A stretch of DNA of 64,000 bases from the NCBI RefSeq assembly GCF_020034665.1, contig NZ_JAIQDI010000002.1:2604001-2668000 (forward strand), in the 5' to 3' direction. Below the pieces are notes generated by a model. That model ran no database searches. It had not been told where the DNA came from and saw nothing but the letters and a program-made list of their open reading frames with translations. The DNA comes from Niabella beijingensis. Lineage in GTDB: Bacteria; Bacteroidota; Bacteroidia; Chitinophagales; Chitinophagaceae. Both the position numbers and the translations under genes were made by a program. Position 1 is the first letter of the stretch, and every line of letters starts with the position of its first letter. Positions 23,770-35,363 of the stretch are shown piece by piece.

Positions 23770-23848
23770 ACAAAGTCCGAAAATTAAATTTTCTCATAAG
23801 CAGTTAGTTTTGGTTGCGACCCCTGTTTCCACAGGGGTCTATCTTTTT
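23770..23848 (+). ncRNA. Conserved structured element, copy A (possible small RNA 3' end)
   Basis: A 36-base block (23783-23818) is identical to one on the minus strand near 34.3 kb. It runs into a 9-bp stem (23818-23826 with 23831-23839, loop TTCC) and a T-rich tail, which is an intrinsic terminator on the plus strand. The second base pair of the stem is A-T here and C-G in copy B, a compensatory change. A further shared block, ACAAAGTCCG, lies at 23770-23779. No plus-strand gene lies upstream, so an independent small RNA is the simplest reading. Confidence 0.5.
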
Positions 23849-23851
23849 ATG

Positions 23852-25000
23852 CTACTCTTCCTCTCCGGTATTTTTCATTTTCATCAGCAGCGAATAAGCA
23901 TTCCTGCTCACGATCTGTCCGGCGGGAAGCGTTGACTTTATTTCTGTATAATCGCCGTTAACACTGCCGACATCCACCGGCTCCATACGAAATTCGCCCT
24001 GGCCTCTAGCCATAAAAACGTAGTTCTTATTCTCCCACCGAACTACCGCATCGTTGGGTACAGCAGTTACCTTTGCATTATCCAGCTCCACTTCCGCATT
24101 CATAAACATACCCGGCAGCAAGCGTTTATCGTAGCGGTCAAAATGGCAATGCACCTCCGCGGAACGGTCCTGACCAATATTTTTCGTGATCAGGTGGATG
24201 CGTGCACCGTATTTCTCATTAGGATTATTATTGGTATAGCAGCTGACCCGCTGTCCTTTTACAAGGTCCAATACATCTTTTTCAAATACGGTAAGACTCA
24301 GATGAATATCTCCGGGGTTGATGAGTTCAAACAGCACATCGGTAGGACTTACATATTTGCCGGGATTCACATTTACTTTTGTTACAAAACCACTGAGCGG
24401 TGAATAAATGTTCACCCGGCTGGTAATGGTATGGTCCGTAAGGCGATCCGGATTGACATGGATCAATTGCAACTTTTCTGCCAGCGAGCGGACCAGCACC
24501 CGCTGACTTTCATAATCGCTTTTTACCTGTTGAAACACCTTATCGCTATTGGCTTTTGAAGCATTCAGTTCTTTCTGCCGGTTAAAATCGGTTTCCAGGA
24601 AGCCTAACTTGCTTCTGGCCATCAGGTAATCCTGTTGCAGTTGTATGTACTGCGGGTCCTCCAGCACGGCCAGCACCTGCCCCCTGCTCACCTGCATACC
24701 GGGCAGCAGCTTCATGCTTTTTAGATAGCCTCCCAGCGGCATGCTTACTGAAACAATATTCTGCGGCGGCACATCTATCACCCCGTTTACTTTTAATAAC
24801 GTATGCATTTCCTTTGCTTCCGGTCCGGCCAGTTCTATTCCGGCATTCCGGATCTGTTCCGCCGTTAAACGCACATTATTTTCAGACGGTGCTGCCGCGG
24901 TCGTTTTATTTTTTTCGTTTTGTTTTGACGCTGGCTGGCCCTGCTTACAGGCTGCAAACAAACTGCAAACACCCAATACCAGTAATAATATCTTTTGCAT
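23852..25000 (-). CDS. RND efflux periplasmic adaptor (CzcB/CusB family lipoprotein)
   Basis: 382 residues from the ATG at 25000 (MQKILLL). A lipoprotein signal ends at C18 (LFAACKQ). The membrane-fusion order is clear: a first beta strand set, a lipoyl half-motif (SMPLGGYLKSMKLLPGMQVSRGQVLAVLEDP), a long helical hairpin (about 120-185), the second lipoyl half (NIYSPLSGFVTKVNVNPGKYVS), the beta-barrel and membrane-proximal domains. It links the inner membrane pump to the outer membrane channel and may pass metal to it. It is the last gene of the efflux operon, 20 bases after the pump gene. Confidence 0.93.
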   Translation of the reverse strand: MQKILLLVLGVCSLFAACKQGQPASKQNEKNKTTAAAPSENNVRLTAEQIRNAGIELAGPEAKEMHTLLKVNGVIDVPPQNIVSVSMPLGGYLKSMKLLPGMQVSRGQVLAVLEDPQYIQLQQDYLMARSKLGFLETDFNRQKELNASKANSDKVFQQVKSDYESQRVLVRSLAEKLQLIHVNPDRLTDHTITSRVNIYSPLSGFVTKVNVNPGKYVSPTDVLFELINPGDIHLSLTVFEKDVLDLVKGQRVSCYTNNNPNEKYGARIHLITKNIGQDRSAEVHCHFDRYDKRLLPGMFMNAEVELDNAKVTAVPNDAVVRWENKNYVFMARGQGEFRMEPVDVGSVNGDYTEIKSTLPAGQIVSRNAYSLLMKMKNTGEEE

Positions 25001-25020
25001 AACGATGCTCTTTTTTATGA

Positions 25021-28000
25021 TCAATTGATTCCACTTAATTTTTCCACCGTAAAGGCCGATTGGTTGAGTTGCTCCACCATTTCAAAATAACGGCTGCGCG
25101 TTTCCAGCGCCTGGTTCACCAGTATCACCCAGTCGAGATAGCTGATCTCCCCGCTGTTCATTCTTTTGGAGGCCCCGTTAATAACGGTTGCTGCATTCCT
25201 TAATAACACATGCTGGTAGTTGCGCACCAGTCCGCTGTTGCGCGTATAAATACGTATTGCATTCAGCAGATCCGTATTCAGCTGCTGCCGCACCGTCTTT
25301 AACTCCTGTTCCCGTTGCTGCAACAGGATGGCCGCCGACCGTATACGGGAACGCTGTGCCCCTGCAAATAACGGGATGCCGATGCCTACATTTACCGCAG
25401 AGAAGCGGTTACCCCCATTAAAGTAGGTCTCTGCATCTCCTACCCGCTGATATCCGATGATGCTGGTATTACTATAACCCAGGTTCAGCGTGGGCAGCAT
25501 GCGGCTTTTCTCCAGCCGGTAAAGCTGCGCCGTGCGCTGCGTTTCAAACTGCTGTAGTTCTATGGTCGGGGTATGATCAATAACAGCCGTATCCGGAAGA
25601 TGATCCAGCCGGTAGTTAATATCATCACCAACCGGCACCAGGGGGGCTGCTGTATTTAAAACCATGCGGAACCGGCTCAGCGTTGCCTCATAATCCCCCC
25701 GCAGCAATGCCAGTTGATTGGCGACCTGGAACCGAAGGTTCTCTGCAGTGGATTTTTCCAGACTGTCCACGTCACCCAGCTTCAACCGTAAGTCAGATTT
25801 TTTCAACACTTCTGCATACATGCTGTCGGCCTCCAGCAGCAGCCGCTCTTGTTGTTGCATTACCAGCAGGGAATAGAACAACTGCTTTACCAACATCTTT
25901 ACTTCTGTTTCCTTAAGCCGGACGGCAGCCTGACTGATGTTGACATTGGTATTGTTCACATTCCGCTGATGCCGGTAAACCGCAGGAAACTGAAAAGCCT
26001 GCGATACGGTGAACCGGTTGTCATTGGCCCCACTGTTGATCTTTCCATATTCAACCCCCAGCTCCGTCTTATCTATATCCACGGCACTCCGTTCCAGCGC
26101 ACGGTAATATTGCACTCCCGTTTTTGACACCTGCAGGGAAAGATTGTTCTTGAGGGCCGTGTCCACCGCCTGTTGCAAACTAACGGACTGCTGCGCCGGG
26201 GCCGCAGCGGGAAGCAGGAACAGTACCAGCAGACCAACCGCAACGGATCGTTTTACGAGCCGGAAATAGCGGAATCCTTTTTCAAACAGGATATAAAGTA
26301 CCGGCAGAACGAAAAGGGTGAGCAGCGTAGAAATAATGAGACCTCCTATTACCACCGTCGCCAGCGGTTTCTGCACCTCGGCACCTGCACCCTGGCTAAC
26401 GGCCATCGGGATAAAACCCAGCGAAGGCACCAACGCCGTCATCAGCACTGCACGCAGCTTTGATTTTGTGGCATGCATAACGATCCGCTTCACATCATCC
26501 CAGCCCTCTTTTTTCAACCGGTTAAATTCTGTTACCAGCAGGATCCCGTTCAGCACCGCCACTCCAAAGAGTGCTATAAAACCAACTCCTGCAGAAATAC
26601 TGAAGGGCATGTCCCGGATCCACAACGCCAGGATCCCCCCGATCGCCGAAAGCGGGATGGCGGTATAGATCAGCAGCCCCTGTTTTACCGAATTAAATGC
26701 AAAGTATAATAACAGGAAGATCATGATAAGCGCAATAGGCACCACGATGCCCAGGCGTTGTTTGGCAGCTGTCAGGTTTTCAAAGGCTCCGCCATAAACA
26801 ATAGAATATCCCAATGGCAGTTTGAGCTGCGTTGCCACTTTTTGCTGAAGCTCTGTAACCATACTTTGTACATCCCTTCCATTAACATTAAATCCTACAA
26901 TGATCCGTCTCCGGGTGTTTTCCCGCTGGATCTGGTTGGGGCCTTCTATCTCCGACACACGGGCCACCTGTTCCAGCGGAATCTGCAGGCCATTGGCAGT
27001 GGGGATCAGCAGTCGCTGCACATCTGTAATATTCTTACGGGATTCGCCAGCCAGGCGTACCACCATGTCAAACCTTTTTTCACCCTCGTAAACCAATCCC
27101 GTGGTCTGCCCTGCAAAAGCGGTATTTACCACGCGGTTGATGTCACTTACATTCAGCCCGTAGGTAGCCATGGCATCGCGGTCGTAATGTATGACCACCT
27201 GCGGCATACCGGTAACGGTTTCCACATACAGGTTGATCGCGCCCTCCACTGTCTTTATCACTTCGCTGAGCTGGTGTGCATACCATGCCAGGGAGTCCAG
27301 GTCTTCTCCAAATATCTTGCAGACCACATCCTGTCTTGCACCCGTCATCAATTCGTTAAAACGCATTTGCACCGGGAACTGGAAGCCCACGCTTACACCG
27401 GGCACTACAGACAGTTCCTTTGTCATCTTTTCTGCCAGTTCATCAAAGGAATGCGCAGAGGTCCATTCCTTTTTATCTTTCAATATCACCATCATATCGC
27501 TTGCCTCCAGCGGCATGGGATCTGTTGGGATCTCAGCACTGCCGATCTTGGTCACCACCTTTTCCACTTCAGGAAATTTTTTAAGCAGGATACCCGCTGT
27601 CTTTTGCGTCGCATCAATGGTCGTGTTCAGATTGCTTCCGGTAAGCAAACGGGTTTCTACAGCAAAGTCGCCCTCTTCCAGCTCCGGTATGAACTCCCCG
27701 CCCATTTTGCCAAGCAGATAAACAGCGATCGCAAAGAGCACCAGCGTGGTAGCGATAACCGTTCGGGGTAACTGCAGCATACGTTTCAGCAATGGCTGGT
27801 AGCGGCGTTCCAGCCAACCCATCATCCGGTCGGCCAGGGTACGTTTGTGGCGGATCTTTTTGCTGAGGCATAATGCACTCATCATCGGTACATAGGTCAC
27901 CGACAGGATAAATGCCCCCAGGATGGCAAAGGCTACCGTGAACGCCATCGGTTTGAACATTTTGCCTTCAATGCCCTGGAGGGAGAGTATGGGGAAGTAT

Positions 28001-29385
28001 ACGATCAGGATAATGATCTGACTGAAGACAGCAGATTTGATCATATTTCCGGTTGAGGCGTTCACCTCCGCATCCATGGTATGCTGGGTAATCACACCTG
28101 TGTTCCTGAAATGCCGGGAATGGGAAAAGCGGTGCAGGATGGCCTCCACCACGATGACCGTACCATCAACGATAAGACCGAAATCGATCGCACCGAGGCT
28201 CATCAGGTTACCTCCTACCCCAAACTTATTCATAAGTATGATGGCGAACAGCATGGACAGGGGGATAACGGAAGAAACAATAAGCCCTGCGCGCAGATTG
28301 CCCAGGAAGAAAACAAGGACAAACACCACGATTAACGCGCCTTCGACAAGATTGGTTTCCACCGTCTTTATCGCATTATTCACCATCTTGGTACGGTCGA
28401 GGAAGGGTTCAATCACCACACCCTCGGGCAATGATTGCTGTATTTCCGCCACTTTTTCCTTTACCCGTTTTATCACTGCCGACGAGTTCTCCCCCTTCAG
28501 CATCATCACCACAGCTCCGGCCACCTCCCCTTTGTCGTTAAAGGTCATGGCACCATACCGGGTAGCCGCTCCCAGCCCTACGGCAGCCACATCCCTTATC
28601 AGCAGCGGCATGCCGTTGTCCAGGTTCTTTACCACGATCTTTTCGATATCTTCCAGGCCGGTGGTAAGTCCTTCACTGCGTATATACAATACGGTAGGCC
28701 CTTTTTCAATATAAGCACCACCGGTGTTCTGGTTGTTCTTTTCCAGCGCATCAAAAACAGCGCCGATGGTGATATTGTACGCCTTAAGCTGTTCCGGCTT
28801 TACCGCTATTTCATATTGTTTCAGCTGACCGCCAAAGCTGCTCACATCTGCCACACCCGGCGTGCCCAGCAATTGCCGGCGCACTACCCAGTCCTGCAAA
28901 GTGCGTAGCTCCATGGGGCCGTATTTACCTTCATAGCCCGCTTTGGGCCGTACCACATATTGATAAATCTCACCCAACCCCGTGGTAACAGGCGCCATGG
29001 CCGGTGACCCTGCTCCCTCGGGAATCTCCTGCTGTACCTGTTGCAGCCGTTCACTGATCTGTTGCCGCGCCCAGTAAACATCCGTTGCATCATCAAACAC
29101 GATGGTGACCAGCGACAGGCCGAAACGCGAAAAGCTCCGGATCTGTTTCAGGCCCGGAATATTACTGCAGGCCTGTTCTATAGGGAAGGTGATCAGCCGC
29201 TCCACATCCGGTGCACCCAGTGCAGGGGAAACCGTGATAACCTGCACCTGATTGTCTGTTATATCTGGTACGGCATCGATGGGCAACCGGCTCACTTCAA
29301 AACTGCCCCATCCGATTAGCGCCAGTACCAGCAGACCAACAATCAGCTTATTCTTTACAGAAAAGCTAATAATCTTATTTAGCAT
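25021..29385 (-). CDS. Heavy-metal RND pump fused to its TolC-like outer membrane channel (CzcA-CzcC)
   Basis: 1454 residues. Residues 1 to about 1040 are a CusA/CzcA-type pump: the first helix with RLPIDAVPDITDNQVQVI, VERLITFPIE, the helix IV proton-relay acidic residues in GAIDFGLIVDGTVIVVEA, and twelve helices. A signal-like hydrophobic segment ending PAAAPAQ (about 1046-1062) then precedes a complete TolC/CzcC domain (VSLQQAVDTALKNNLSLQ onwards). The substrate is a divalent cation such as Co, Zn or Cd, or Cu; the sequence does not decide between them. The fusion is known in Bacteroidota. It sits between a small secreted-protein gene and the adaptor gene. Confidence 0.93.
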   Translation of the reverse strand: MLNKIISFSVKNKLIVGLLVLALIGWGSFEVSRLPIDAVPDITDNQVQVITVSPALGAPDVERLITFPIEQACSNIPGLKQIRSFSRFGLSLVTIVFDDATDVYWARQQISERLQQVQQEIPEGAGSPAMAPVTTGLGEIYQYVVRPKAGYEGKYGPMELRTLQDWVVRRQLLGTPGVADVSSFGGQLKQYEIAVKPEQLKAYNITIGAVFDALEKNNQNTGGAYIEKGPTVLYIRSEGLTTGLEDIEKIVVKNLDNGMPLLIRDVAAVGLGAATRYGAMTFNDKGEVAGAVVMMLKGENSSAVIKRVKEKVAEIQQSLPEGVVIEPFLDRTKMVNNAIKTVETNLVEGALIVVFVLVFFLGNLRAGLIVSSVIPLSMLFAIILMNKFGVGGNLMSLGAIDFGLIVDGTVIVVEAILHRFSHSRHFRNTGVITQHTMDAEVNASTGNMIKSAVFSQIIILIVYFPILSLQGIEGKMFKPMAFTVAFAILGAFILSVTYVPMMSALCLSKKIRHKRTLADRMMGWLERRYQPLLKRMLQLPRTVIATTLVLFAIAVYLLGKMGGEFIPELEEGDFAVETRLLTGSNLNTTIDATQKTAGILLKKFPEVEKVVTKIGSAEIPTDPMPLEASDMMVILKDKKEWTSAHSFDELAEKMTKELSVVPGVSVGFQFPVQMRFNELMTGARQDVVCKIFGEDLDSLAWYAHQLSEVIKTVEGAINLYVETVTGMPQVVIHYDRDAMATYGLNVSDINRVVNTAFAGQTTGLVYEGEKRFDMVVRLAGESRKNITDVQRLLIPTANGLQIPLEQVARVSEIEGPNQIQRENTRRRIIVGFNVNGRDVQSMVTELQQKVATQLKLPLGYSIVYGGAFENLTAAKQRLGIVVPIALIMIFLLLYFAFNSVKQGLLIYTAIPLSAIGGILALWIRDMPFSISAGVGFIALFGVAVLNGILLVTEFNRLKKEGWDDVKRIVMHATKSKLRAVLMTALVPSLGFIPMAVSQGAGAEVQKPLATVVIGGLIISTLLTLFVLPVLYILFEKGFRYFRLVKRSVAVGLLVLFLLPAAAPAQQSVSLQQAVDTALKNNLSLQVSKTGVQYYRALERSAVDIDKTELGVEYGKINSGANDNRFTVSQAFQFPAVYRHQRNVNNTNVNISQAAVRLKETEVKMLVKQLFYSLLVMQQQERLLLEADSMYAEVLKKSDLRLKLGDVDSLEKSTAENLRFQVANQLALLRGDYEATLSRFRMVLNTAAPLVPVGDDINYRLDHLPDTAVIDHTPTIELQQFETQRTAQLYRLEKSRMLPTLNLGYSNTSIIGYQRVGDAETYFNGGNRFSAVNVGIGIPLFAGAQRSRIRSAAILLQQREQELKTVRQQLNTDLLNAIRIYTRNSGLVRNYQHVLLRNAATVINGASKRMNSGEISYLDWVILVNQALETRSRYFEMVEQLNQSAFTVEKLSGIN

Positions 29386-29469
29386 AATCTTTTTTCGTTA
29401 ATTCAAATAGTAAATAATTCCTTCCACCGGCCGGAGCCGGCAGAAAGCACAATAATGATCCTGTAAGAA

Positions 29470-29853
29470 TTAAAAATGGGTCCGCGGCGGACGAAAGAGC
29501 GCAGCAAGTGCAGGGTCGGGGATGTTATGGTCCTTTAAAAGAATATAAGGGACACACGAGGTTGTTATAGAAGTACAGTGAATCGAAACAGGTTTTGCAA
29601 GCGGTATAAAAGTGTGCTGAATGGTGCCGGACGTAATATTTTTATAGGGGAGCTGACGGTCCCTGTCATCATCATCATCGTTAATATCCGGCCCGCAGTA
29701 ATGCATACACAAAAACTCAGCTATACCAATACCTTCATTCCGCTGCTGGTGCTCCTGAAAATGTGCCACTAAAGTGGGGAGCTTTAATAATTGGTTAAAT
29801 GCCGTATTGTGTAACAGAAAAAGAAGCAATAAGAGGCCTGCTCTTTGTCTCAT
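29470..29853 (-). CDS. Small exported protein heading the metal-efflux operon
   Basis: 127 residues from the ATG 29853 (MRQRAGLL). An N-terminal hydrophobic signal is followed by NQLLKLPTLVAHFQEHQ, FLCMHYCGPDINDDDDD and a His/Cys-containing tail. Clustered H, C and D residues suggest metal binding. Unnamed proteins of this pattern often precede czcA in Bacteroidota. The gene is 84 bases upstream of the pump gene. An exact TAnnTTTG box ends only four bases before the start codon. Confidence 0.7.
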   Translation of the reverse strand: MRQRAGLLLLLFLLHNTAFNQLLKLPTLVAHFQEHQQRNEGIGIAEFLCMHYCGPDINDDDDDRDRQLPYKNITSGTIQHTFIPLAKPVSIHCTSITTSCVPYILLKDHNIPDPALAALFRPPRTHF

Positions 29854-29857
29854 CCGG

Positions 29858-29865
29858 CAAATATA
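29858..29865 (-). promoter_or_regulatory. -7 box of the metal-efflux operon
   Basis: On the minus strand TATATTTG, an exact TAnnTTTG match, ending 4 bases before the ATG at 29853. The transcript would be leaderless or nearly so. No clear -33 TTG is present, so an activator may be needed. Confidence 0.5.
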
Positions 29866-30054
29866 AAACATGTGGCTTAATGAAACCATCCCTTCTTTAA
29901 AAGAGGCGTATTATTTGTTGTTAAGAACATAATGTGCCGCATGCAGCATCGTTATACCAACGTTACTTTTCAATATACGATATATAGTTTATGTAAGATA
30001 CTGAAACAAGTTCAGAATGACCGCGCGTGTGTTTGTCATTACGGTGATCAACGG

Positions 30055-30101
30055 CAACTAAAAAAGGTTGTCATTCCGGCCCTGGTTCAGAATGACAACC
30101 T
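30055..30101 (-). terminator. Intrinsic terminator after the Gfo/Idh/MocA gene
   Basis: On the minus strand, a perfect 12-bp stem (AGGTTGTCATTC / GAATGACAACCT, 30065-30076 and 30090-30101, 13-base loop) is followed by TTTTTTAG. It begins 17 bases after the stop at 30118. Part of the right arm (GTTCAGAATGAC) recurs at about 30009. Confidence 0.7.
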
Positions 30102-30117
30102 CTGACTTGAAGCCGTT

Positions 30118-31455
30118 CTATACTGCTCCGCCTCCGGCTAAAAACTTATTGGCCTTATCTTCTTTGAAGCGGGCATTTTCGCCATCCCAGTGAAGCGTTT
30201 CACCCGGGAACCTTGCAGCGATCACACCCAGCAGGATCACTTCCGTAAGCTTGGCGGCATAAGAGAAGGGTGCGCTGCATTTGGTTGTACCCAGACAGGC
30301 ATCCACAAATTCATGATAATGCTTGGGGGTCTCCGCATCATAACTGGTAACCGGCTTTCCGGCAGTACCATCGGGATCATATTTCTTGATATCGATGGGA
30401 ACAAATTTGCCATCCACGATCAGTTTGGGCAGCTGCATAAAGTGCGGCAATAACAACCGCTGACCGTTTTCGCTGATAAACATGGCACCCTGGTCCGGTA
30501 AGGCTTCGCCTCCGGGAAGCTCCAGCTCGCTTTGCAGTTCCGGTGCTCCTTTACCATCATACCATACCCACTCCAATGTATCTGCTGTATAAGGTGTTCC
30601 GGGAAACACATAGCTTACATGATTTTTTTCCGGGTGACCAAAATCATTGGGAGCACGGCATTCGTTCTTAACGGTAAGCGGCACGCTTAACTTTAATGCA
30701 TTATAGGGCGTATCAAAAATATGTACGCCCATATCGCCCAGCGTACCACAACCATAGTCGATACATTTTCTCCAGTTACCCGGGTGATAGAGCCCGTTCT
30801 TATACGGCCGCTTTTTTGCAGTACCCAGCCACAGATCCCAGTTCAGTCCTGCGGGTACCGGATCGCTCCCCTGTGGTTCGGGGCCGTCATATCCCCAGAC
30901 CTTCGGCGACCAGGCGATCACTTTTTTTACTTTACCAATGATCCCTTTCTGGATCAGTATCGTAGCCAGCTTGTAATCATAAAAGGAGTGCACCTGGATG
31001 CCCATCTGGGTGATCAGGTTCTTTTCAGCAGCCACTGCATCCATTTTTCTTGATTCGGAAATATAATGGGTCAGTGGTTTCTGACAGTACACGTGTTTAT
31101 TCAGATCCATGGCCGCCAGGGAAACAGGTGCATGTGCATGGTCGGTTGTAGATACCACCACCGCATCGATCTGACTGCCCATGGCTTTGAACATCTCTTT
31201 ATAGTCGGCGAAAAGTTTTGCCTTTTTATATTTAGCCTTTACTTTATCCAGGGCATTGCTGTCCACGTCGCAAAGCGCCACGATCTCCACAGCCGGGTGT
31301 GAAGCAATGGCCATCAGATCACCGTTGCCCATGGCACCAAGTCCTACCTGGGCCACCCTTAATTTTTTATCGGAGTTAAAAGCCGAAGAAGAGAACGGCA
31401 GCATAAAAGCAACCGTTCCCGCAGCTGTGGTTTTTATAAAACTTCTTCTTTTCAT
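30118..31455 (-). CDS. Gfo/Idh/MocA family oxidoreductase, exported
   Basis: 445 residues. The N-terminus (MKRRSFIKTTAAGTVAFMLP) is the Tat-like signal usual for this family in Bacteroidota. The Rossmann dinucleotide motif is VGLGAMGNGD, followed by ALCDVDSN, VVVSTTDHAHAPV and HVYCQKPLTH (the EKP motif, here QKP). The C-terminal beta-sheet domain contains the CGTLGDMGVHIFD segment typical of these secreted sugar dehydrogenases. It should oxidise or reduce a sugar derivative with NAD(P). It is the second gene of an operon with a DUF1080 protein, a pairing frequent in glycan utilisation. Confidence 0.92.
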   Translation of the reverse strand: MKRRSFIKTTAAGTVAFMLPFSSSAFNSDKKLRVAQVGLGAMGNGDLMAIASHPAVEIVALCDVDSNALDKVKAKYKKAKLFADYKEMFKAMGSQIDAVVVSTTDHAHAPVSLAAMDLNKHVYCQKPLTHYISESRKMDAVAAEKNLITQMGIQVHSFYDYKLATILIQKGIIGKVKKVIAWSPKVWGYDGPEPQGSDPVPAGLNWDLWLGTAKKRPYKNGLYHPGNWRKCIDYGCGTLGDMGVHIFDTPYNALKLSVPLTVKNECRAPNDFGHPEKNHVSYVFPGTPYTADTLEWVWYDGKGAPELQSELELPGGEALPDQGAMFISENGQRLLLPHFMQLPKLIVDGKFVPIDIKKYDPDGTAGKPVTSYDAETPKHYHEFVDACLGTTKCSAPFSYAAKLTEVILLGVIAARFPGETLHWDGENARFKEDKANKFLAGGGAV

Positions 31456-31499
31456 ATGTGTCTTTTTGTTTTAGATTTTAATCTTTAGTAAATGGCTTA

Positions 31500-32297
31500 T
31501 TAAAGTGGTCGTACCTTTATGTTTTTAAACCACATAGAGCTTCCGTGATATTGAAAACCGATATAGCCGGTCTTAAATTTTCCGTAATCGGGGCTTTTTG
31601 CCCATTTGCCTGATTTTTTACGGGCATACCAGTCGTCCGACCAGGGTTTAAAACTCAATAGCTTTACACCATTCAGCCAGTGCTCGGTACGGCCGGGGGC
31701 GACCACGATCTTCGTGGTATTCCATTCACCAACAGGATGCAGCAATTTCCTGGCTTCGTCCGTTGTATGCATGGCATAATCGGCACCGGTCTTTTGCCAG
31801 TCCTGTAATTGCTCCGGATGCTCGGCTCCGAACTGAGCGTTGTAATCTTTAAGATCGCTGTGCAGGCGGGCATAGTTGGCATCATCGATCAGCTGGTACT
31901 CCGGACTGATGCTGGATGGGGAACCGTAGCCTTCCTTTACATGATAATAGATCCCGCTGTTACCTCCCTCTGCGATCTTCCAGTCTACTGTCAGTTCAAA
32001 ATATTCAAATTCCTGTCCGCCGAAGATCACGTCGCGTCCGCCTTTGTAGGCCGTATCCGGCTTTGCCGCGTCGTTCATCCACAACATACCGTCGCTGATC
32101 GTCCAGCCGGGAGACAGCGTTTTACCATTGTAGCCCCGCCATTTGGAGCTGTTTTGCGGAGCCAGTAAATCGATCACTTTCCCTTCCTGTACAGAATATC
32201 CGGCGATGGGTTTTGAGGTTGGTAAAGAGGTACTGTCTGTTCCAAAAATCATAAAAACGGGAGCCAGCAACAGCTGCACCAATGAGAATAACTTCAT
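31500..32297 (-). CDS. DUF1080 (3-keto-disaccharide hydrolase-like) exported protein
   Basis: 265 residues from the ATG 32297 (MKLFSLVQ); the frame is open to 32357. After the signal peptide comes a jelly-roll lectin/hydrolase domain with FNLF-like opening (APQNSSKWRGYNGKTL), GMLWMN, GGQEFEYFELTVDWKIAEGGNSGIYYHV, EYQLIDD, GEWNTTKIVVAPGRTEHWLNG and the final IGFQYHGSSMWFKNIKVRPL. Members cleave 3-keto-glycosides or 3-keto-disaccharides. It is 44 bases upstream of the Gfo/Idh/MocA gene; together they could process keto-sugar intermediates. Confidence 0.92.
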   Translation of the reverse strand: MKLFSLVQLLLAPVFMIFGTDSTSLPTSKPIAGYSVQEGKVIDLLAPQNSSKWRGYNGKTLSPGWTISDGMLWMNDAAKPDTAYKGGRDVIFGGQEFEYFELTVDWKIAEGGNSGIYYHVKEGYGSPSSISPEYQLIDDANYARLHSDLKDYNAQFGAEHPEQLQDWQKTGADYAMHTTDEARKLLHPVGEWNTTKIVVAPGRTEHWLNGVKLLSFKPWSDDWYARKKSGKWAKSPDYGKFKTGYIGFQYHGSSMWFKNIKVRPL

Positions 32298-32576
32298 AAA
32301 GGCAAAAAAGATTGATAAGCGATTAAATTGAAGAGCATGTATGCAATGTGGATACAACTGCTAAAATAATAAAATAATCAGTAAAACTATCAAACAAGTT
32401 GAACACCGGCGTCAGAACAACACACACATAGAACCCCGGCCATTCGTATTCCATCATCCCCGGTGGCCCGGCCGTTAGAAAAAGAAAAAGTTCCGGTTTT
32501 GAAAAAAGAAAAAGCAAAGAAGACCGCAAAAAGGATAAAACACCGGAAAAGATGCCCGCATCAACAGGCGGTGTAT

Positions 32577-32584
32577 TAGCTTTG
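32577..32584 (+). promoter_or_regulatory. -7 box of the Nudix gene
   Basis: TAGCTTTG, an exact TAnnTTTG match, ends 5 bases before the ATG at 32590, again a nearly leaderless arrangement. No -33 match at 19 bases. Confidence 0.45.
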
Positions 32585-32589
32585 TCATC

Positions 32590-33048
32590 ATGAAGACAAG
32601 CGCTGGCATATTATTATTTAAAAAAAATAAAAACGATCTGTTGTTTTTCCTAGTGCATCCCGGTGGCCCTTTCTGGAAAAATAAGGACCGGGGCGCGTGG
32701 TCGATACCCAAGGGAGAACTGGCCGCAGGTGAAGATCCGCTGGAACGTGCCTGCACCGAATTCAGAGAGGAAACCGGGCAGGCGGTTCATGGCATTTTTT
32801 TACCCCTGTCCCCTGTGCAACAGAAAGGAGGAAAACGGATCATTGCCTGGGCCCTGGAGGGCGATATTGATACGACGGCATTAAGCAGCAACAGCTTTAC
32901 CCTTGAATGGCCGCCGCGATCGGGCAGCATGATAGCGGTGCCGGAAGTAGACCGCTGGGAATGGTTCTCCGGCGATGAAGCCCAGCAACGGATCAACCCG
33001 GCACAGGTGCCACTCCTGAATGAAGTACAGGCCTTATCCACACAATAG
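32590..33048 (+). CDS. Nudix hydrolase
   Basis: 152 residues. The Nudix box runs from G42 to G63 (GELAAGEDP..TEFREETG). The usual Arg of REUxEE is Thr, which is tolerated in this subgroup, while the metal-binding E57, E60 and E61 remain. AGILLFKKN at the start and GGPFWKNKDRGAWSIPKGE are typical of the diadenosine-polyphosphate (Ap4A)-type branch. It hydrolyses a nucleoside diphosphate linked to another group; the exact substrate is unknown. It is convergent with the YihY gene. Confidence 0.9.
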   Translation: MKTSAGILLFKKNKNDLLFFLVHPGGPFWKNKDRGAWSIPKGELAAGEDPLERACTEFREETGQAVHGIFLPLSPVQQKGGKRIIAWALEGDIDTTALSSNSFTLEWPPRSGSMIAVPEVDRWEWFSGDEAQQRINPAQVPLLNEVQALSTQ

Positions 33049-33087
33049 CATTCCGGATACGGGGGAAAAGGACATCGACAACACCGC

Positions 33088-34029
33088 TTATGCCGCAGGT
33101 CCGGGCTCGATGGTTTCCACAACTGTTTTTAAATGAACCGCATATTTTGAGGGCCGGATGCGCATCTGGTAGCGTTCTGCATAGGCTTCCGTAAATTCTG
33201 CCCCAAAGTATAAGATCAATGCGGTATAATACACCCAAACCATAAACACTACAACAGAGCCGGCAGCACCAAATACAGCTCCCGTATTGGTTTGGGTAAC
33301 GTACAGCTGGATCAGGAATTTGCCGACCATAAACAGCACTGCGGTGAACCCGGCCCCCATCAAAGCCGGCTTCCATTTCAACTGTACATCCGGCAACACT
33401 TTAAAAATCACGGCAAACAAGAGGGTGATCACAAGGAAGGTGACCACCAGACTCACTACTTTGAAAATAGACAGAGAAGAGAAAGACAGGTATTGCTGTA
33501 ATTCGTGCTGCAGACCGGTGAGCACGGTGCTGATCACCAGCGACACCAAAAGCAGGAACCCCAGTGAAACGATCAGGGAAAAAGACAGCAGGCGGTTTGC
33601 AACCAGTTTCTTCCACCCTTTTTCAGGAACGGCCTTTACATTCCAGATGGTATTGATACTATCCTGTATCTCGGTAAAAACAGCGGTAGCACCTATAATA
33701 AGGGTAATTCCGCCAATGATCAGGGCAATCATGTTCTTTCCGCTAAGCTCCGCATTGGCTACAAACAATTCGATATCCCCTGCCAGCTTGGCGCCTACAA
33801 AACCGGTCAGCTCGGCGTGCAGTTTACCTTCGATCGCATCCTTACTATAGATGATACTTGCAGTAGCAATAACAATGGTCAGTAAAGGGGCGATCGAAAA
33901 CACCGTACAGTAAGCCAGCGAAGAACTGAGCTTGGGCACCTTGTCTTCTGAGAACCCTTTTGCAGACGCTTTCAGCAATGCAACGGCTTCCTTAAAAAAC
34001 AGTTTTATTTTTTTTACAAAGGCAGTCAT
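33088..34029 (-). CDS. YihY/BrkB family inner membrane protein
   Basis: 313 residues with five to six transmembrane helices. The family start LSSSLAYCTVFSIAPLLTIVIA, IEGKLHAELTGFVG, the pattern around SINTIWNVKAVPEKGWKK and RLLSFSLIVSLGFLLLVSLV, and the final AGSVVVFMVWVYYTALILYFGAEFTEAYA are diagnostic. Once called ribonuclease BN by mistake, the family is of unknown function, possibly a transporter or envelope factor. It is monocistronic. Confidence 0.93.
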   Translation of the reverse strand: MTAFVKKIKLFFKEAVALLKASAKGFSEDKVPKLSSSLAYCTVFSIAPLLTIVIATASIIYSKDAIEGKLHAELTGFVGAKLAGDIELFVANAELSGKNMIALIIGGITLIIGATAVFTEIQDSINTIWNVKAVPEKGWKKLVANRLLSFSLIVSLGFLLLVSLVISTVLTGLQHELQQYLSFSSLSIFKVVSLVVTFLVITLLFAVIFKVLPDVQLKWKPALMGAGFTAVLFMVGKFLIQLYVTQTNTGAVFGAAGSVVVFMVWVYYTALILYFGAEFTEAYAERYQMRIRPSKYAVHLKTVVETIEPGPAA

Positions 34030-34487
34030 AGTTATTACCTAAGGTTCTGAATGGATAGAAACAATATTTACCGGCTGCCGCATTCCTGCGGGAGCCACTT
34101 CCGGAAAAATCACCGGCCATACCCAACATTTACAACAGAAACCATACCGTTTATAGGTCCGTTGCAGCGCTGCCATACCCGGTGAGAAACCCGTCCGCAA
34201 AAATAAGCCGGCAACAGCACACCGTTGTATTTCTGTTAGAAACCGGATATTCTTCCCTTAATAAAATAGCCCCCTGTGGAAACAGGGGGCGCAACCAAAA
34301 CTAACTGCTTATGAGAAAATTTAATATCTTAACCGGTAACCCGGACTTTGTTCTTTGAATGATAACTTTATTATACAATAACCGTTCCATTTTTTATTTT
34401 CAATAAAAAATAATCATTTACGGCTTTCTTACCGGCATCAGCGGGTATGCCGGTTCTTCCGGAAACCACCCAGGGTCCGGAGCCGGT
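34030..34487. other. 458-base intergenic region
   Basis: It holds the second copy of the structured element (34265-34351, minus strand) and a weak 8-bp inverted repeat (34431-34438 with 34446-34453). No gene is visible. Confidence 0.5.
34265..34351 (-). ncRNA. Conserved structured element, copy B (possible small RNA or 3' UTR)
   Basis: It shares 36 identical bases with copy A (34290-34325 here). Its terminator stem (34269-34277 with 34282-34290, loop TTCC on the minus strand) is G-C at the position where copy A is A-T, and it is followed by TATTTTATT. The upstream block ACAAAGTCCG is also shared (34342-34351), but with 13 more bases of spacer than in A. On this strand it lies 137 bases after the stop of the polysaccharide lyase gene, so it could be that gene's 3' UTR, or a small RNA. 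Confidence 0.5.
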
Positions 34488-35363
34488 TTAATTTAACGCG
34501 ATGATCCGGATATCATCATGAAAGGCAATACGGGTAAGTACGTTATCGCCGATGATCACATTGCCGGCGGCGTCCTTGCCCGCCTCCCGGTACACACCCC
34601 ATTTGATATAGCCATGCTGTCCCTGGAGTCCCGTTCCGGTATAGGTGGCATAATTATTCCGTTCGAGCACCAGGTTATAGCTGGTCTGGCCCGGCAGCCG
34701 GGTATAGATCTTTAAATATCCTGTATTGGTATCGGCCCATTTTACATCGATCCGGAAATGGATCCACTGATTGATATAAGAGCGGAAGTCGGCCACCAGG
34801 TTATCCTGGAAACTGGTATTGCGTGTTACGATGGCATTGCGCTTGGTAAGGATGCGTACCGGTACCAGCGCCCCGCCTGAAACCTTTAACTGGAAGATAT
34901 TATCACCATATGCCGGGTTTGCGCTGTTCCACTCTTCCCAATCCTTCAGATAGACACTAAATTCGTACCGGCGTTCATCACCCGGTAAAAAGCGTGCGGC
35001 AGCCCCTGCCATATCCGCATCGGATTCACTGCGCCAGGCCTCATTGGAATAATAACCGGTATCTCCAAGGGTAACCTTATGTGCGATGGCATAGTTACTG
35101 TTGCCGCCCGGGGTAATCATATACGCCGCATCCGGGGCAGGCGCATTCGTTGGGTTGAGACCCGTAATACCCGAACTGGTCGTGCCGTTTTCATAACTAA
35201 CATTCAGTATCGTATCACCTGCGGTAAAAAAGGCTGTGGCGCGGCCCGTTGCAGTAATGCTGCCGGCAGCCTGCAGGGCGGCTGGATTGTTCGTTTTTGT
35301 ACAGGCAGTGGCAAAGGAAAGCACTACCAGGGGCGTTCCAAAGCAAAGGAATCGTTTGTTCAT
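34488..35363 (-). CDS. Heparin lyase I-like polysaccharide lyase lipoprotein
   Basis: 291 residues. A lipoprotein signal ends at C21 (FATACTKTN). The rest is a beta jelly-roll of the Polysacc_lyase type (PF14099): a nucleophile-region strand after the linker (AIAHKVTLG), the RRYEFSVYLKDWEEW strand, SYINQWIHFRIDVKWADTNTGYLKIY, and GYIKWGVYRE near the end. Heparinase I (PL13) and related lyases share this domain. It cleaves uronic-acid-containing chains by beta-elimination. Its neighbour is a HepC-like lyase, so heparin or heparan sulfate is the likely substrate. Family fairly sure, exact specificity inferred. Confidence 0.75.
   Translation of the reverse strand: MNKRFLCFGTPLVVLSFATACTKTNNPAALQAAGSITATGRATAFFTAGDTILNVSYENGTTSSGITGLNPTNAPAPDAAYMITPGGNSNYAIAHKVTLGDTGYYSNEAWRSESDADMAGAAARFLPGDERRYEFSVYLKDWEEWNSANPAYGDNIFQLKVSGGALVPVRILTKRNAIVTRNTSFQDNLVADFRSYINQWIHFRIDVKWADTNTGYLKIYTRLPGQTSYNLVLERNNYATYTGTGLQGQHGYIKWGVYREAGKDAAGNVIIGDNVLTRIAFHDDIRIIALN

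Follow-up and report, generated by a model that had tools for sequence, protein, structure and literature searches.

A conserved-core, terminator-ended RNA element in Niabella and other Chitinophagaceae: a probable family of small regulatory RNAs

Introduction

Most of what is known about RNA regulation in Bacteroidota comes from a few species, gut Bacteroides among them. In a 64,000-nucleotide (nt) stretch of the Niabella beijingensis genome (assembly GCF_020034665.1, contig NZ_JAIQDI010000002.1, positions 2,604,001 to 2,668,000, forward strand; hereafter the window), an earlier note drawn from the letters alone had pointed to a structured intergenic element present in two inverted copies, here called A and B. 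The locus raises the question of whether the element is a small RNA, the 3' untranslated region (UTR) of neighbouring genes, or a DNA repeat. We argue that both copies belong to a multi-copy family of small regulatory RNAs, which would be induced by stress and would act in trans at start codons, working like FopS of Bacteroides; we put the probability of this reading, which is built on sequence comparison, at roughly 60%.

Results

A repeat search of the window recovered copies A and B as inverted arms at 23783-23849 and 34259-34325, each 67 nt long, 94% complementary and separated by 10409 nt. The longest run identical between them spans 36 bases (ATTAAATTTTCTCATAAGCAGTTAGTTTTGGTTGCG). Each copy has a 9-base-pair (bp) stem closed by a TTCC loop, GACCCCTGT-TTCC-ACAGGGGTC in copy A and GCCCCCTGT-TTCC-ACAGGGGGC in copy B, with a T-tail behind it, so the anatomy that the earlier note had described was present in every part. 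At a single stem position copy A has A-T where copy B has C-G; both partners differ, and pairing is preserved. A 24-base core pattern searched with up to three mismatches occurred in the 64 kb only at copies A and B, with none expected from 100 shuffles, and folding of stretches near the two predicted RNAs gave z values of -3.1 and -2.9 relative to shuffled sequences. The 5' end of copy A was inferred from an ACAAAG block common to copy B and a third copy (L003; L and G numbers denote loci and genomes). A further upstream block, ACAAAGTCCG, is common to both window copies, which look like a recent duplication.

A search of this genome (G000; 6.59 Mb in 3 contigs) with the element gave six strong matches with E-values from 1.6e-42 to 6e-13, the next best having an E-value of 0.29. 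A covariance model, R1, was built from these six copies. Copies B and A are L001 and L002, and L003-L006 lie on the other large contig. The search for additional copies that the earlier note had proposed thus yielded four more in the genome, and it was positive in all relatives of the genus sampled: R1 matched 22 of 39 genomes, including 17/17 Niabella and 4/7 other Chitinophagaceae, and in the order outside the family a single weak match (E 3e-4) was found among 15 genomes. Each Niabella genome (n = 17) had 2-9 R1 matches, a few of them weak or from a related second family. In a class-wide sample of 295 genomes, to which stricter filters were applied, R1 was found in 5/7 family members and 0/288 others. 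An exact-core scan of named genomes returned at least 119 stretches. Among 80 of these, nearly all were titled Chitinophagaceae, Chitinophagales or Bacteroidetes, with the genera Niabella, Terrimonas, Sediminibacterium, Flavihumibacter, Segetibacter, Puia, Flavisolibacter and others represented; a few titles, for example Sphingobacterium and Williamsia, belong to metagenome bins that are possibly misnamed.

Two sets were used in what follows. The relatives set comprises 100 R1 matches from the 17 Niabella and four other genomes, after the last 5 of 105 matches (<30 bits) were dropped. The named set comprises 76 loci, that is, the 80 stretches minus four from Niabella. Three named loci share identical element rows with the relatives set, which makes the sets less than fully independent.

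In line with an Rfam check suggested earlier, no Rfam family reached its gathering score anywhere in the window. A PrrF-like Rfam alignment of copy A (E 0.047; 23 bits, where the cut-off is 90) was rejected as chance, and none of the eight weak Rfam matches to copy A (E up to 10) was a Bacteroides family. In the accessible part of the literature we found no account of this RNA family, and the core sequence matched only two plant papers there. The family appears to be so far uncatalogued and, as far as sampled, confined to Chitinophagaceae, which live in soil and water.

The stem is conserved in pairing and variable in sequence. In the six own copies, 4/9 stem pairs changed on both sides and 54/54 cells pair. 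In the 76 non-Niabella loci of the named set, which lie outside R1 (77 matches, 76 distinct rows), two-sided changes occurred in 9/9 pairs and 99.9% of 682 stem cells pair, a result matched by 0/500 shuffles. Sliding the partner by 1-3 columns lowered pairing to 27-61%. This alignment was fitted to R1, which favours pairing, and the loci had been picked by the core and not by the stem. Covariation, which the earlier note had seen in one pair and read as a hint of RNA, extends to the entire stem.

The core is conserved in sequence. TTTCTCATAAGCAGTTAGTTTTGGTT is letter-identical in all six own copies, and GCAG[AT]T-N-GTT occurred in 95/100 copies of the relatives set; the five copies without any core were omitted from the conservation count. 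At positions not forced by the search pattern, the top letter was found in 86-94 of the 95 through TTGGTT and in 47-51 of the 95 thereafter. A second hairpin predicted within the core was discarded, as only 52 and 47 of the 95 copies retain its two outer pairs. The family has paralogous copies with one core and a conserved structure with an intrinsic terminator and T-tail.

A second, related RNA-like family was seen in five Niabella genomes (L122, L123, L127, L128 and L129, near positions 2001-2077). It carries TTCCTTAAGCAGATAGTTTTCGAGAGTGCACC in L122, L123, L127 and L128 and a variant in L129, with a hairpin and T-tail of its own behind each. In two Niabella genomes the element occurs as a tandem pair, at L049:1335-1573 (166 nt apart) and L097:2001-2266 (~192 nt).

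Gene context separated two forms. Copies just behind hsp20, a small heat-shock protein gene, made up 20/100 of the relatives set and 12/76 of the named loci; those of the relatives set came from all 17 Niabella genomes and from G019, G020 and G023. In two Niabella assemblies that are 72-83% complete (G003, G013), a broken Hsp20 frame ends ~178 nt before the core, and these were counted as hsp20-linked by exception. In N. beijingensis the hsp20-linked copy is L006, behind a gene with a Pfam HSP20 match. When a copy lay within 80 nt behind a same-strand open reading frame (ORF), that ORF was hsp20 in 18/21 cases (relatives set) and 11/13 cases (named set). Free-standing copies were also frequent: the nearest upstream neighbour is an opposite-strand gene for 23/100 relatives-set and 20/76 named copies. 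L003 overlaps a convergent gene, and copy A meets one at 0 nt. The earlier note had suggested a small RNA for one copy and a 3' UTR for the other; gene context supports both forms, and the evidence favours a structured RNA, probably a small one.

Upstream regions were scanned for promoter patterns. TGGCA-N6-TTG is the -24/-12 pattern of sigma-54. It was found within 130 nt upstream of 24/100 relatives-set and 29/76 named copies, compared with 0.5% of 13747 background windows, and in reversed form before 0/176 copies. The final count includes 14/100 relatives-set copies without the main core that had been left out of the first. Most sites lie ~40-66 nt before the core, five in the relatives set at 95-116 nt and two in the named set at ~130 nt. 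Spacings one base off preceded 4/80 + 0/64 or 1/80 + 0/64 copies (background 2.6-3.6%). The pattern recurs across several unlike upstream groups and many genera. None of the 34 copies adjoining a same-strand ORF had TGGCA-N6-TTG in its own 130 nt upstream. The hsp20 gene itself has such a site: TGG-N8-TTG preceded 27/28 readable hsp20 start codons, mostly at 43-53 nt (background 4.1%), and TGG-N7-TTTG preceded 27/28 (background 1.5%), with spacings one base off in 1/28 and 0/28. Four of 32 loci had no readable ORF and were omitted, giving n = 28. This suggests sigma-54 control of hsp20 in Chitinophagaceae. As rpoN was found in 39/39 genomes, its presence does not discriminate.

Other promoter types were less prominent. 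TAnnTTTG is the canonical sigma-ABfr promoter, and it preceded only 11/100 and 13/76 copies, mildly over a background of 5.4%; the sigma-54-type motif was far more enriched. An extracytoplasmic function (ECF)-type AAC-N16-CGT preceded 5/100 and 8/76 copies against a background of 1.7%, and the N17 form 6/100 and 7/76 against 1.8%, which is suggestive only of an ECF-type promoter at some copies. The free-standing copies L210, L207, L100, L102 and L103, which lack TGGCA-N6-TTG, have the ECF-like AAC-N16-CGT spacing upstream.

The core was also found in 16 IMG/VR contig stretches, 14 of them distinct. All 16 matched R1 including the stem (E 3e-15 to 7e-6), and in 10/16 the element follows a same-strand ORF at no more than 80 nt. 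Ten proteins, taken from seven of the stretches, were compared with PHROG, and the matches included endolysins and a tail fibre. A sigma-54-type site was seen in 0/16. Annotated phage records gave a single chance-level match, and plasmids gave none.

Pairing of the 27-nt core was tested against start regions from -35 to +20 of the longest ATG ORF. A first look in which 13 SusC-like genes stood out was post hoc. At 44 held-out SusC starts of this genome, mean pairing was -10.8 versus -9.03 kcal/mol, and 0/250 dinucleotide-shuffled cores were as strong; at 30 SusC starts from six relatives, 2/250 were as strong. SusD-like starts (42 genes) gave no signal, with 174/200 shuffles as strong. Outside the family, near-perfect complements of the core, with 3 mismatches, occurred at three sites, one of them where a LuxR-type gene begins. 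A wobble pattern with at most one mismatch gave 21 sites, the six copies and 15 others, compared with four for the reversed pattern. Apart from L143 (the LuxR-type gene) and possibly L149, none of the 15 coincides with the beginning of a long ORF. RRM genes, which could supply a helper protein, were found in 27/30 genomes, with four matches in N. beijingensis.

The features of the window are collected in Table 1. The sigma-54-like site upstream of copy B, TGGAACGGTTATTGT, is weak taken alone, because 4% of background windows fit TGG-N8-TTG too, and it lies farther from the copy than equivalent sites in most other members. The core of copy B begins ~172 nt past the stop of the same-strand lyase gene. 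Copy A has no same-strand gene just upstream, the nearest ORF being on the opposite strand 766 nt off, and a convergent gene lies downstream. Pfam scans of the five larger ORFs between the copies identified efflux, oxidoreductase, hydrolase and BrkB-type genes. One ORF (25021-29385, minus strand, 1454 aa), directly upstream of the CusB-like adaptor, fuses an RND efflux pump (ACR_tran) to an OEP outer-membrane efflux domain. No tRNA or tmRNA was found in a search of the window. Among the relatives sampled, none of the loci bearing a copy has the flanks of copies A and B.

Table 1. Predicted RNA elements and adjoining features in the window
Feature	Position	Strand	Basis
Copy A, predicted small RNA	23770..23849	+	Sequence; R1 match L002, 96.9 bits (copy A itself in R1 model)
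Conserved 27-nt core TTTTCTCATAAGCAGTTAGTTTTGGTT, proposed seed, copy A	23789..23815	+	Core conservation comparisons
Covarying terminator hairpin, 9 bp, TTCC loop, copy A	23818..23839	+	Covariation, folding
T-rich tail TATCTTTTTA, copy A	23840..23849	+	Sequence
CusB/HlyD efflux adaptor gene, convergent with copy A and directly behind it	23852..25024	-	Pfam PF16576
Copy B, predicted small RNA or processed 3' end	34259..34354	-	Sequence; R1 match L001, 98.8 bits (copy B itself in R1 model); 5' end inferred
T-rich tail TATTTTATTA, copy B	34259..34268	-	Sequence
Covarying terminator hairpin, copy B	34269..34290	-	Covariation, folding
Conserved 27-nt core, copy B	34293..34319	-	Core pattern search, six-copy comparison
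Weak sigma-54-like -24/-12 site upstream of copy B	34375..34389	-	Fits TGG-N8-TTG
Polysaccharide lyase gene upstream of copy B	34488..35363	-	Pfam PF14099

Discussion

The anatomy of the family, to judge from its sequences, is of the small-RNA type: a variable 5' leader, a fixed open core, a terminator with compensating changes, predicted promoters of their own at many copies, and both free-standing and 3'-UTR forms. In the mechanism that we propose, the RNA would consist of a short 5' leader, the conserved and mostly unpaired core (UUUUCUCAUAAGCAGUUAGUUUUGGUU) and the intrinsic terminator. Stress from protein or envelope damage would activate sigma-54; free-standing copies would be transcribed directly, and the hsp20 copy would either be cleaved off the end of its hsp20 mRNA or have a transcription start close to that end. 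The common core could then pair with the start regions of target mRNAs, where CUCAU can pair with AUGAG starts, and translation would be stopped. The likeliest targets would be SusC-type outer-membrane porins, and the helper may be an RRM protein. Since a stress-type promoter or hsp20 often precedes the copies, they probably help to switch off other genes under stress.

Several results weigh against this account. Across 611 ORF starts (40 genome stretches and the window), 218 paired at -10 kcal/mol or below versus 219 with shuffled cores, which is no general excess. SusC starts of the six relatives differed from those of other genes only at p 0.07. In G022, a family member with no R1 match, 10 SusC starts (of 49 SusC matches) paired at -11.05 kcal/mol, with 5/250 shuffles as strong, while core-like sites there were at control level. 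Because this genome shows equal pairing without the RNA, the SusC signal is possibly a property of SusC leaders, and we therefore do not count it as decisive for the targets; the SusC result is suggestive and not specific. The best single site, with 20 pairs over the start of the LuxR-type gene, belongs to a gene that is full-length in this genome only. As for promoters, orthologous loci are not independent counts. Among the own copies, only L003 and, via hsp20, L006 have a clear sigma-54-type site; that of L001 is weak, and none was seen for L002, L004 or L005.

The most serious competitor is a specialised 3'-end module, in which the core would be a protein-binding tag (for an RRM protein, for example) placed before the terminator that stabilises or terminates the upstream mRNA, with no action in trans. 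The hsp20 copies and the phage stretches with the element close behind a same-strand ORF fit this well, the U-rich core is kept more strictly than a terminator requires, and the evidence for specific targets is weak. Yet for many copies the nearest upstream gene is on the opposite strand, and a sigma-54-type site precedes the core of many free-standing copies by ~40-66 nt, an arrangement hard to explain if the element only formed the end of an mRNA. We consider the 3'-end module possible but on balance unlikely.

Explanations that do not involve a regulatory RNA acting on its own fare worse. The element could be a mobile or recombining DNA repeat (an insertion-sequence end, a repetitive extragenic palindrome (REP)-like element or an inversion site), given that it occurs in multiple copies, two of them close together and inverted, that the A/B flanks were not recovered at copy-bearing loci of relatives, and that phage contigs carry it. 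But the element is directional and ends at a terminator, its stem shows compensating two-sided changes, the flanks differ and unlike promoters stand in front, and the number of matches per Niabella genome is low. The earlier note had raised inversion of the 10.5-kb interval and, as a caution, an insertion-sequence end. Nothing found points to inversion: the similarity extends over only 67 nt, and no recombinase was found among the five larger interval ORFs scanned with Pfam, smaller ORFs having been left out. An insertion-sequence end looks unlikely, as the copies lie in unrelated surroundings and have little in common beyond the RNA itself. We regard a DNA repeat as very improbable. A cis-acting leader, either an attenuator or a riboswitch, for a downstream gene is hardly credible: a terminator-ended structured element can in general be an attenuator, but copy A faces a convergent gene and L003 overlaps one, different ORFs follow the own copies, and the sole further predicted hairpin is poorly kept.

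A regulatory RNA family of the kind that we favour might be part of something larger. We tentatively suggest, as an idea with the odds against it, that in Chitinophagaceae it forms the RNA arm of a sigma-54 response to protein-quality and envelope stress, in which hsp20 and the small RNAs are co-induced, the core silences many SusC porins, and phage copies, often directly behind phage genes, use or blunt the circuit. The family is widespread in cultured species and easily recognised by its fixed core, conserved hsp20 link and sigma-54-type promoter. It makes testable a stress-to-outer-membrane RNA circuit in Bacteroidota, similar to that of enterobacteria but with another sigma factor, and the reason for which phages carry the same core.

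Among known systems, the closest in description is FopS of Bacteroides thetaiotaomicron. The accessible text of PMC11697453 describes RNAs made of a seed and a terminator, with one member located in a 3' UTR and one copy in a phage, and gives the start region of a SusC gene as target. FopS is further described, in the portions available of PMC11697453 and PMC7366714, as having 12-15 copies in named Bacteroidaceae, canonical sigma-ABfr promoters and binding by RbpB. RbpB is an RRM protein, and, as for FopS and GibS, RRM genes are present in Niabella too. Unlike FopS, the Niabella family has 2-9 matches per genome, belongs to Chitinophagaceae, and is associated with sigma-54-type promoters and hsp20; the likeness is one of description.

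Small RNAs under sigma-54 have precedents. In Vibrio, several sigma-54-dependent Qrr paralogues carry one seed. GlnZ and NrsZ are small RNAs under RpoN, and GlnZ comes from a 3' UTR, according to the accessible text of PMC9731577, which gives no hsp20 link for either. All three are proteobacterial and are different RNAs. In Flavobacterium psychrophilum, -24/-12 promoters are described, with a sigma-54 regulon that includes protein quality control and an envelope stress response; no small RNA is named in the accessible part of that account (PMC9723704). This regulon fits the presence of hsp20 here.

The logic proposed for Niabella resembles that of RybB, MicA and MicL of Escherichia coli, where the stress sigma factor sigma-E drives small RNAs that stop the synthesis of outer-membrane proteins. 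The sigma factor and the phylum are different, and the targets here are only predicted. If the proposal is true, the family would be a Bacteroidota counterpart of the sigma-E small RNAs.

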